Source of the DNA: Cupriavidus gilardii J11
GTDB taxonomy: Bacteria > Pseudomonadota > Gammaproteobacteria > Burkholderiales > Burkholderiaceae
Length of the DNA: 40,227 nucleotides
Reading direction: 5' to 3'
Assembly (NCBI RefSeq): GCF_007829435.1
Contig: NZ_VLJN01000067.1
Location: forward strand, 20,702-60,928
How positions within the stretch are numbered: the stretch's first letter is position 1; each line of letters begins with the position of its first letter. A program made the position numbers and the translations under genes. The notes under the pieces were generated by a model. It made no database searches, was not told where the DNA came from, and saw nothing but the letters and a program-made list of their open reading frames with translations. This document shows, in pieces, positions 20,975-23,394 of this stretch.

Positions 20975-21859
20975 ATGACCCTCGATCGCCGCAATCTCGC
21001 CCTGCTCGTCGCGCTGACGCTCGCCTGGGGCATCAACTGGCCCGTGATGAAGATCGGCGTGGCCGATTTCCCGCCGCTCGGTTTCCGGCTGCTGTGCATG
21101 GCGGGCGGCCTGCTGGCGCTGGGCGTGGCGCTGGGCGCCAAGGGCATTCCGCTGGCGGTGCCGCGCGCGCTGTGGGGCACCGTGTTCAAGCTGGCCGTGC
21201 CCAATATGGTGGTGTGGCACCTGCTGGCGATCTGGGCGGTCAAGATGCTGTCGTCGGGCCGGGCCGCGATTCTGGGCTACACCATGCCGATCTGGGCGGT
21301 GGTATGGGGGCTGCTGCTGTACCGCGAGCGTATTCCGGGCAGCGCCTGGATCGGCATCGGCTGCGCGCTGGCCGGCACGCTGCTGCTGATGTCGAGCGAG
21401 ATCGGCGCGCTGACAGGCAGTCCGCTGGGCACGGTGATGATGCTCGCGGCCGCGGCGGGCTGGGGTCTCGGCACGCAACTGCTCAAGCGTACCCAGGTGG
21501 ACCTGCAGCTGGGCACGTTGACCTTCTGGATGCTGGCGGTCGCGCTCCCCTTCCTGCTGGCCGGCACCATGCTGTTCGAAAGCGGCTGGCGCATGCCCAA
21601 CGCGGTCGAATGGGCGGCGATCGCCTACAACGCCGTGGTGGTGTTCGCGTTCTGCCATCTGGTGTGGTTCGCGCTGGCGCGCAACCTGCCGCCCGTGGTG
21701 TCCAGCCTGTCGATCATGTTCATTCCGGTGGTTGGCGTGTTCTCGGGCATGTGGATGCTGGGCGAGCAGCCGCACTGGCAGGACTACGTCGCGATCGTGC
21801 TGATGTTCGCCGCGCTGGCGTCGGTGATGCTGCTGCCATCGCTGCGCCGGCGCGCCTGA
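20975..21859 (+). CDS. EamA/DMT-superfamily transporter
   Basis: Inner-membrane drug/metabolite transporter of the EamA family, 294 residues. The sequence is almost entirely hydrophobic, with ten likely helices in two five-helix repeats. The first starts ALLVALTLAWGINWPVMKIG (9-28); the second starts near GTVMMLAAAAGWGLGTQLLKR, both carrying the WG(I/L)-type EamA signature. It ends with the charged LLPSLRRRA. The substrate is not predictable: family members export amino acids, purines or other metabolites. Start ATG at 20975; no strong ribosome binding site is visible. Confidence 0.9.
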   Translation: MTLDRRNLALLVALTLAWGINWPVMKIGVADFPPLGFRLLCMAGGLLALGVALGAKGIPLAVPRALWGTVFKLAVPNMVVWHLLAIWAVKMLSSGRAAILGYTMPIWAVVWGLLLYRERIPGSAWIGIGCALAGTLLLMSSEIGALTGSPLGTVMMLAAAAGWGLGTQLLKRTQVDLQLGTLTFWMLAVALPFLLAGTMLFESGWRMPNAVEWAAIAYNAVVVFAFCHLVWFALARNLPPVVSSLSIMFIPVVGVFSGMWMLGEQPHWQDYVAIVLMFAALASVMLLPSLRRRA

Positions 21860-21921
21860 GCCGCCGACGGGACGTCCCGGCGCTGTCCCCTCGCCCATGC
21901 CGCCCTTCATTGAGATTTCAC

Positions 21922-21951
21922 TTAACAAAGCCGGCCGCGTTGGGCTACACT
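21922..21951 (+). promoter_or_regulatory. Candidate sigma-70 promoter of corA
   Basis: TTAACA (21922-21927, five of six -35 matches) and TACACT (21946-21951, four of six -10 matches) with an 18-bp spacer. Transcription would start near 21958, just before the structured leader. Confidence 0.5.
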
Positions 21952-21980
21952 CGCGCCCATCCATAATCCCGGAGAAATTA

Positions 21981-22128
21981 CGTGGGCAGTAGCATCGGGT
22001 GTTCGAGTTGGCGCGGCAAAGCCGCGAACCGCACGAACGCCATGTCACTGCGGGCTGCGTAACGACGAAACCCCAACGGACTTCCCGCCGGGTCCTTTCG
22101 TCGCACCGCCCGCAGCACACTGCGGGCG
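21981..22128 (+). promoter_or_regulatory. Structured corA leader: candidate riboswitch or attenuator
   Basis: Helices visible by eye: CGTGGG (21981-21986) with CCCAACG (22072-22078, one bulge); GGTGTTCG (21998-22005) with CGAACGCC (22034-22041); CGCGGC-AAA-GCCGCG (22012-22026). CGACGAAA (22063-22070) pairs exactly with TTTCGTCG (22096-22103), and CGCCCGCAG-CACA-CTGCGGGCG forms a perfect 9-bp hairpin (22107-22128). GCCCGCAG (22108-22115) can instead pair with CTGCGGGC at 22048-22055, so two folds exclude each other. GGGCAGTAGC right after the first strand recalls the GGGGAGUAGC of yybP-ykoY manganese riboswitches, but the rest of that consensus is not convincing. Confidence 0.5.
21982..22062 (+). 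CDS. Possible leader peptide (uORF) upstream of corA, 26 codons
   Basis: GTG-initiated reading frame preceded by GGAG (21971-21974) at seven bases, ending TAA at 22060-22062. The product would be 26 residues with a basic middle (SSWRGKAANRTN); no known leader peptide was recognised. Its last codons (CTG CGG GC) are the same bases that can pair with 22108-22115, so translation would compete with the leader helix. Salmonella corA and mgtA have regulatory leader ORFs (corL, mgtL), which is the reason to note this; coincidence is possible. Confidence 0.3.
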   Translation: MGSSIGCSSWRGKAANRTNAMSLRAA

Positions 22129-22431
22129 AGTGTCTTCCCGTTCCGCCATCGCACTCTCGCATGGCGCCGGACTTCCCTCCCCCGGCTTGCCAGCCATCAA
22201 CGGCAAACGTCATCGCCTTGCTCCGCCGTCATCGGCCTCCCGGCACGTCAACCCGATTGCACTTCGGGCCGTTTGAGCCGGTGAAGCACGGTTGTCCGGT
22301 CGGCGCTGGAGCGCGATCACGCTTGCCATCGAGCCCGGCCTTTCGCGCGCTTTGCGAAGGGCGAAGCTTGTCGTGCGCCGCAAGCCTGCCTGCCGCATTT
22401 CTTCGTCGTTCGGCACAAGGAAATACCGGGG

Positions 22432-23394
22432 ATGATCAACCTGTTCGTCCTGCAGAAGGGTCGGCTCGCGCAAGAGCAGGTCGACGACCGTGAAGAGCTT
22501 CTGCAGCACAAGCCCATCTGGATCGACGTCGTCAATCCCGACGACGAGGAACTTGCCTGGATCAAGGAAGCCTATGGCGTCGCGCTTCCCGAGCTGGAAG
22601 ACCTGGGCGACCTGGAGGCGTCCGCGCGCTACTTCGAGGGCGAGGACGAGAACATCCATATCCGCACCGACTTCCTGATCGACGAGGAAGACGCGTCGCG
22701 CAACGTGCGCGTGGCGTTCGTGCTCACGCGCGACGTCCTGTTCTCGATCCACGACGAGGACCTGCCGGTGTTCCGGCTGGTGCGGCTGCGCGCGCGGATG
22801 CGGCCGGGCTCGGTGCGCAACGCCAAGGACGTGCTGATGGACCTGTACGCCACCGACGCGGAATACTCGGCCGACTCGATCGAGGAAATCTACGAACGGC
22901 TGGAGGAAGCGAGCAAGCGCGTGCTGGCGGAAAACGTTACCGACGCGGCCGCCGCCGACGTGCTGGAGACCATCGCGCACGAGGAAGACCTGAATGGACG
23001 CATCCGGCGCAACGTGATGGACACGCGCCGCGCGGTGTCCTTCCTGATGCGCAGCCAGTTGCTGTCCGCCGAACAGCAGGACGAGGCGCGGCAGATCCTG
23101 CGCGATATCGATTCGATCGAGAACCACACCGCGTTCCTGTTCGACAAGATCAACTTCCTGATGGACGCCACGGTCGGCTTCATCAACATCAACCAGAACA
23201 AGATCATCAAGCTGTTCTCGGTGGTGTCGGTGGCGCTGATGCCGCCGACGCTGATCGCCAGCGTCTATGGCATGAACTTCAAGACCATGCCGGAACTCGA
23301 CTGGGCCGCCGGCTATCCGTGGGCGATCGCGCTGATGGCGGTGTCGGCGGCGATTCCGTTGGTGTACTTCCGGCGCAAGGGGTGGTTGAGCTGA
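22432..23394 (+). CDS. corA: CorA-family magnesium/divalent cation transporter
   Basis: Pentameric inner-membrane channel for Mg2+ (also Co2+/Ni2+ in some members). 320 residues. A large N-terminal cytoplasmic domain rich in Glu/Asp and long helices (about 1-250) is followed by two C-terminal membrane segments (about 258-278 and 293-313). The selectivity signature YGMNF lies at 279-283, with the periplasmic loop KTMPELDW. The C-terminus is basic (FRRKGWLS), as in CorA. The ATG at 22432 has AAGGA about ten bases upstream. The long structured leader implies control after transcription starts; the true cation is not determined by sequence. Confidence 0.95.
   Translation: MINLFVLQKGRLAQEQVDDREELLQHKPIWIDVVNPDDEELAWIKEAYGVALPELEDLGDLEASARYFEGEDENIHIRTDFLIDEEDASRNVRVAFVLTRDVLFSIHDEDLPVFRLVRLRARMRPGSVRNAKDVLMDLYATDAEYSADSIEEIYERLEEASKRVLAENVTDAAAADVLETIAHEEDLNGRIRRNVMDTRRAVSFLMRSQLLSAEQQDEARQILRDIDSIENHTAFLFDKINFLMDATVGFININQNKIIKLFSVVSVALMPPTLIASVYGMNFKTMPELDWAAGYPWAIALMAVSAAIPLVYFRRKGWLS

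Follow-up and report, generated by a model that had tools for sequence, protein, structure and literature searches.

The RNA leader in front of corA, a major magnesium-transporter gene, in Cupriavidus gilardii J11 is probably a leader-peptide transcription attenuator of that gene, which is taken as corA1. The conservation of the attenuator anatomy, as distinct from its working, is well supported. The window, i.e., the whole stretch of DNA that was analysed, comprises 40,227 nucleotides of contig NZ_VLJN01000067.1. Computation reveals in it an open reading frame upstream of corA (uORF) and four segments, A to D, which pair in mutually exclusive ways, are conserved among relatives, show covariation in A:B and C:D, and are placed before corA. 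This switch probably decides whether corA is transcribed to its end. The features are listed below in window coordinates.

21922..21951, + strand: very probable corA promoter, TTAACA-18-TACACT, with conserved hexamers
21958..22431, + strand: corA leader RNA, start estimated from the -10, conserved in relatives
21971..21974, + strand: candidate Shine-Dalgarno GGAG of the uORF, 7 nt before GTG, present in 30 Cupriavidus leaders and in the outlying loci L044 and L054
21978..22005, + strand: segment A, 5' arm of the uORF hairpin, from folds and pair counts
21982..22062, + strand: leader ORF of 26 codons plus stop, (M)GSSIGCSSWRGKAANRTNAMSLRAA, GTG...TAA
22034..22062, + strand: 3' arm of the uORF hairpin, from folds and pair counts, containing segment B
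22048..22055, + strand: segment B, CTGCGGGC; B:C is mismatch-free in 34 of 35 rows
22063..22103, + strand: linker hairpin between B and C, from folds, variable in sequence and length
22108..22115, + strand: segment C, GCCCGCAG, the complement of B and of D
22120..22127, + strand: segment D, CTGCGGGC; C:D is a terminator-like hairpin, extended to 22104-22132
22128..22143, + strand: tail after C:D, GAGTGTCTTCCCGTTC, U-rich in relatives and weak in the window
22202..22327, + strand: hairpin of element II, GGCAAACGtCATCGC ... GCGATCACGCTTGCC, with an enlarged loop in the window
22432..23394, + strand: corA, taken as the corA1 orthologue (TIGR00383, 255.7 bits against a cut-off of 200.75; PF01544)

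The nearest corA loci among named genomes belong to Cupriavidus, with 96-97% identity. The corA product of the window contains VTDAAAADVLE, and an excerpt of PMC13192273 prints AAAAD as the motif for corA1 of C. metallidurans. The gene is taken as the corA1 orthologue because of this motif match, rather than by comparison with the C. metallidurans sequence itself. CorA1 of C. metallidurans is said to be Mg-regulated in a passage of PMC11112998. The tables excerpted from two further reports do not settle this regulation: corA1 RNA of strain CH34 stood at 0.55-fold under a metal mix and at 1.05-fold in a comparison designated E (PMC11647585), and CorA1 protein was detected only in control cells and was absent from metal-shocked and metal-starved cells (PMC11647595). 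The excerpt of PMC13192273 calls the individual contribution of corA1 small, among nine or more importers. Metal control of corA is thus plausible on the published passages.

A scan of 21500-22700 finds only one sigma-70-like site, at 21922-21951 (mean of 0.1 in shuffles), and both of its hexamers are identical across all 30 aligned Cupriavidus leaders. GGCTACACTCG recurs 47-49 nt before the corA ATG in 13 Ralstonia-type loci (L045-L053, L071-L074), and a similar -10 is also found at short range from corA in several other Burkholderiales loci. The identity of the hexamers in 30 leaders, together with the similar -10 near corA in Ralstonia-type loci, suggests that the site is very probably the corA promoter. 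The distance from -10 to ATG is 415-485 nt in Cupriavidus loci with the element; it amounts to 480 nt in the window, measured from the end of the -10, in agreement with the preliminary description of this DNA, which had placed its best promoter about 480 bp before corA. The possibility that the leader belongs to the upstream EamA-type gene was set aside: L016 and L022 (2 of 30), where no such gene was found, still have a conserved leader. A term search of the main texts of C. metallidurans start-site studies (PMC7563307, PMC9045368) returned nothing on a corA leader.

The element is found in 83 of 178 loci, in which genomes repeat. These 83 loci were collected by a pattern that includes GGAG and GTG with at most one substitution, so that the two motifs are no independent evidence in this set; in the aligned Cupriavidus leaders, GGAG, a 7-nt spacer, GTG and a frame ending in TAA or TAG are present in 30 of 30. 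None of the 34 distinct uORFs has an in-frame inner stop, against 4 and 40 stops in the other two frames, and the lengths of 75, 78, 81, 84 and 87 nt are all multiples of 3. The distance from the stop codon to segment C takes 11 values (17, 40-45, 49, 50, 52 or 55 nt) that cover all three residue classes. The encoded peptide is mostly VGSSIGC-S-x-(C/W)R...(N/D)AMSLRAA. The ends of the uORF are nearly fixed at the nucleotide level and the middle varies, with 14 of 51 nearest-neighbour changes synonymous vs 23% expected; amino-acid constraint was not seen, and the peptide as a functional product was set aside on this count. Fixed ends, a preserved frame and a middle without amino-acid selection are as expected if translating matters and the product does not. 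The uORF has mixed Gly, Ser and Cys codons and no run of one regulatory codon. Codon 10 (22009-22011) is TGG (Trp) in the window and in seven other distinct copies, and a Cys codon in most, giving CXXC. The longer ORF at 21999-22493 was rejected as a gene, its frame being different from the conserved uORF frame. The earlier proposal, that translating a leader ORF controls corA at a step later than initiation, gains support from comparative evidence (open frame, pairings and predicted switching).

The uORF sits inside the A:B hairpin (21978-22062), the leader's first stem. Segment B, in the last part of the uORF, is repeated downstream as D, and the complement C is situated between them. Since B and D are both complementary to C, the pairing B:C excludes A:B and C:D. 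The order of an 8-mer, its reverse complement and the 8-mer again occurs in the first 190 nt of the leader and in 0 of 1000 shuffles (15 of 1000 for a 7-mer); it is rare only for these first 190 nt, as shuffles of the whole 474-nt leader contain an 8-mer triple in 58 of 1000 and a 7-mer triple in 364 of 1000. The 38 aligned loci (35 distinct rows) were fitted to the covariance model, which favours the structure of the model; 98.6% of cells are paired. Changes on both sides of a helix occur in 6 pairs and 25 cells; the corresponding figures are 1.4 and 5.4 for shuffles and do not exceed 4 and 4 when the partners are slid. They are located in A:B (L044), in the tip hairpin of A:B, which accounts for most of the 25 cells, and in C:D (L054). 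B:C is nearly invariant and shows no covariation of its own in the 35 rows, and covariation was therefore discarded as proof of this helix. The GGG of B has no partner in A:B but is identical in 35 of 35 rows; such invariance is to be expected if B:C forms, although the coding frame constrains GGG as well. Long invariant nucleotide stretches are further observed in the aligned leaders.

The folding energies point to a structured RNA, as the preliminary description had claimed. The leader (21958-22431) folds at -212.1 kcal/mol vs -190.5 +/- 6.2 for shuffles (z -3.5; 0 of 100 as low), and its first 182 nt (21958-22139) at -86.7 vs -64.5 +/- 4.0 kcal/mol (z -5.55; 0 of 200 as low). The same description had named a lack of conservation or covariation in related species as evidence against its proposal; the helices are conserved and covary among relatives, and the element is absent from the examined loci of Ralstonia, a genus it had suggested for the comparison. 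Its resemblance of GGGCAGTAGC, correctly placed at 21985-21994, to the yybP-ykoY core did not hold: RF00080 has no match, and GGGCAGTAGC forms codons 2-5 of the uORF. No Rfam family, RF00080 and the M-box included, reaches its gathering score in the window, and a lax-filter scan of 21860-22480 gave four chance hits (best E 1.4), none of which is a metal riboswitch. The leader as a yybP-ykoY riboswitch, or as a member of any Rfam family, was accordingly rejected.

Element II, with the consensus GGCAAACG(C/T)CATCG(C/T) ... (G/A)CGATCACGCTTGC, is present downstream of D in 81 of the 83 uORF loci and is probably a further part of the same corA leader. Its arms are invariant, and thus without covariation, in the 26 rows of alignment A2. 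Inspection by eye shows coordinated changes in the loop-side stem: T after CTTG is mostly faced by A, and C at that position mostly by G. L004 combines T with G, and L001, L012 and L016 depart from the pattern. In L044, AUCGC/GCGAU is changed to AUCGU/ACGAU. Element II is absent from L054 and from L178 of the same genome. The arms are 96 nt apart in the window (22217-22312), compared with 18-50 nt in the 30 further distinct forms listed.

The covariance model R1 matches 54 of 59 Cupriavidus genomes (E 1.5e-29 or better) and, among 398 family genomes searched with strict filters, two further genera (G434, 1.1e-19; G448, 1.0e-12). The 399 order genomes, searched with strict filters that lose weak matches, gave three matches, all in Cupriavidus; the matches in twelve family genomes that gave nothing but weak ones (E 0.02-0.9) were treated as chance. 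A blastn search with a 581-base query gave hits in 36 of 60 genomes, a count that includes the genome of the window; every one of the 36 belongs to Cupriavidus. Five Cupriavidus genomes are without the element: G777 (78% complete) and G004, G005, G027 and G028, in which blastn matched the promoter end and/or the corA end only. G004 retains the promoter together with AATCCC and the 3' arm of element II, and the other three keep the promoter with a different short leader. The loci L070 (C. agavae) and L042 (G004), which have the same leader, and L174-L176 retain the promoter with no uORF or A-D, and show two different short leaders. In a quick tree of 75 corA genes, many forks of which are weak and long branches of which are flagged, the element needs four changes, three of them forced by starred branches. 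The two Cupriavidus groups without the element lie on separate branches, and the element was apparently deleted twice within the genus. L054 lies outside Ralstonia and Cupriavidus, so that either an old element has been lost in Ralstonia or the element was transferred between lineages. The contig of L077 is filed under a MAG of Thermoflexus hugenholtzii (Chloroflexota) and is probably misassigned; its corA is 76% identical to the Cupriavidus protein and groups with Polynucleobacter.

When folded from just upstream of B to the end of C, 16 of 16 copies form B:C; extending the fold by D yields C:D in 16 of 16. Partition functions of 18 copies likewise predict mutually exclusive structures. A:B forms in a transcript ending at the uORF stop codon. 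With the transcript ending at C, the mean P(B:C) is 0.84 (0.78-0.99 in 17 copies; 0.0 in L054, and 0.75 there once A is masked), and with D out P(C:D) is 1.0 and A:B returns. In 17 of 18 copies, the ribosome-free ensemble thus passes from A:B through B:C to A:B plus C:D with increasing transcript length. Masking A, as by an early ribosome, raises the mean P(B:C) to 0.98 with the transcript ending at C; with D out, C:D prevails at a mean of 0.91 vs 0.09 for B:C, with the exceptions of L008 (B:C 0.88) and L027 (0.42). As C:D beats B:C at equilibrium once D exists, read-through must be kinetic, and B:C acts only if the polymerase escapes before the helices exchange, as in known attenuators.

In the proposed mechanism, the polymerase would start at about 21958 and first produce the ribosome site and the body of the 26-codon leader ORF. 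Without translation, A:B and C:D would pair, and C:D would stop transcription before corA. A ribosome that completes the uORF would halt at 22060-22062 and cover B, upon which C:D would form again. A ribosome lingering at about codons 2-9, on the other hand, would cover A and free B, and B:C could pair before D is made; with B:C trapped in place, C:D would come too late and the polymerase would read on into corA. Slow early elongation would give more CorA, which would fit a low cytoplasmic Mg2+ that slows the ribosome. The gene itself and the one passage in PMC11112998 suggest Mg2+ as the signal.

Termination at C:D may be of the intrinsic type or depend on Rho. The tails after C:D in relatives (GAGTGTCTTTCC, GAGTGTTTTTTCC, GAGTGTTCTTCC, AAGGTTCGTCTTTCG and similar) have T-scores of 2.38-3.76 in 20 distinct tails when scored from 3 nt past the core stem, an offset chosen since GAG can extend the stem. 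The reference values of the window are a mean of 1.67, a 95th percentile of 2.45 and a 99th of 2.96; 18 of the 20 tails lie above 2.45, and L008 (2.38) and L044 (2.43) lie below. Scored from the core stem itself, the tails give 1.56-1.86, like the window mean. A consensus terminator scan flags C:D in all four relatives scanned (L003, L007, L022, L044), with 0.4-0.6 hits expected per scan; C:D of the window, with 4 T in 8 in its tail, is not flagged by the same scan. D is followed in the window by a C-rich stretch of 78 nt (offset 214 from 21958) where C minus G is 21, which leaves Rho a possible agent. An attenuator that works with Rho in the manner of corL-corA, in which the uORF and the structures gate the access of Rho to this stretch within the untranslated 370 nt before corA, and in which C:D is only a pause or folding element, is a serious possibility that falls short of being probable. 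It would account for the weak tail of the window, the best 78-nt stretches of L007 and L022 also reach 21, and corA of E. coli works via corL and Rho according to an excerpt of PMC11552253. Yet the C excess is lower in L044 (16) and L054 (13), and Rho would not itself require a hairpin with U-rich tails that differ in sequence among relatives.

The leader-peptide attenuator is supported by the retention of the promoter in lineages without the element. Counted against it are the weak U tract in the window, B:C without covariation and with a P of 0.0 in L054, the lack of a regulatory codon run and of amino-acid constraint in the uORF, and a C-rich stretch that suits Rho. The long nucleotide-invariant stretches and the switching of the ribosome-free ensemble in 17 of 18 copies would also be compatible with an RNA switch that senses a ligand or Mg2+ directly through A:B, B:C and C:D, or through element II, and whose open frame is a by-product. 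We consider such a switch rather unlikely: a pure RNA would not require the ribosome site kept in the outlying L044 and L054, nor a stop-free frame with frame-preserving lengths, and Rfam has no match. It is more doubtful still that the nascent peptide is the metal sensor, its N-terminal CXXC binding a transition metal imported by CorA1, altering elongation at codons 2-10 and so setting the A/B/C/D switch. CXXC is found in most uORF copies (24 of the 34 distinct ones, counted by eye) and at a different place in G448; such a device would join a CruR-like sensor to a trp-like attenuator, and copies with CSSW, as in the window, would have lost or changed the sensor. The promoter of its own and the terminator-like end in relatives might instead delimit a gene for a small RNA or small protein, C:D ending an RNA of about 175 nt with its own role; this is very improbable, given that no second sigma-70-like promoter was found before corA, that corA follows the element in 83 of 83 loci (genomes repeat), and that the uORF shows no amino-acid constraint. 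Two Cupriavidus lineages seem to have lost the element, which is dispensable there, as a merely long GC-rich leader without function would be. That explanation is scarcely credible in view of the z of -5.55 and the near-invariant segments shared with two outlying genera, and genus-wide matches and covariation already contradict it.

In the trp, his and ilv leader-peptide attenuators, the pairings follow the order 1:2, 2:3 and 3:4, the uORF lies on segments 1 and 2, and 3:4 is a GC hairpin followed by a U-rich sequence. The Cupriavidus leader has the same layout, with the U-rich tail in relatives: the overlapping 1:2, 2:3 and 3:4 pairings are present, B:C by invariance only and weakly in L054. 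It differs in that its uORF is without a single-codon run and its gene encodes an ion transporter rather than a biosynthetic enzyme. Bordetella is another member of the same order as Cupriavidus. Its CruR uORF (excerpt of PMC9426467) controls a metal-related transporter operon and has the CXXC motif found in most of the distinct leader uORFs; in contrast, CruR belongs to the DUF2946 proteins and carries a RAPP arrest motif at its C terminus, and the window peptide has no CXXC and no Pfam or NCBIfam match. The tandem attenuators of mgtCBR in Salmonella, as excerpted from PMC3641672, likewise employ leader ORFs and stem-loops to control transcription into Mg2+ transporter genes. They comprise two ORFs that respond to ATP and proline signals, whereas the uORF of the window is without proline, aspartate and glutamate.

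The closest parallel in logic is corL-corA of E. coli and Salmonella. Excerpts of PMC11552253 describe a long leader before corA, a short uORF with a weak start codon in the first stem, two mutually exclusive structures and premature termination as the likely control point. The Cupriavidus leader shares the first two features and is predicted to share the other two; inefficient elongation of corL is said to raise corA in enterobacteria. Rho is needed there, whereas the Cupriavidus leader has a hairpin that resembles an intrinsic terminator. In a search of the E. coli corA region (L179) up to E 10, R1 had no match. The ysgD frame before corA in K-12 is taken to be corL, from its place and UUG start, and its peptide LDTPSRYWLTILSSRINS looks, by eye, unrelated to the Cupriavidus uORF peptide. 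The best reading is that the Cupriavidus leader is corL-like in logic but not homologous, and not a member of the corL family. Searches of open-licence literature turned up no account of it, and the switch is apparently uncatalogued; we file it as a new variant of leader-peptide attenuation with an anatomy of the trp type.

The leader offers a concrete, testable mechanism for the regulation of corA1, and the species without the element are natural controls. If the mechanism is true, it would constitute, together with enterobacterial corL, a second and apparently independent case of a uORF and a switching leader before corA. Such a second case would suggest that the speed of translation is a good gauge of cytoplasmic Mg2+.
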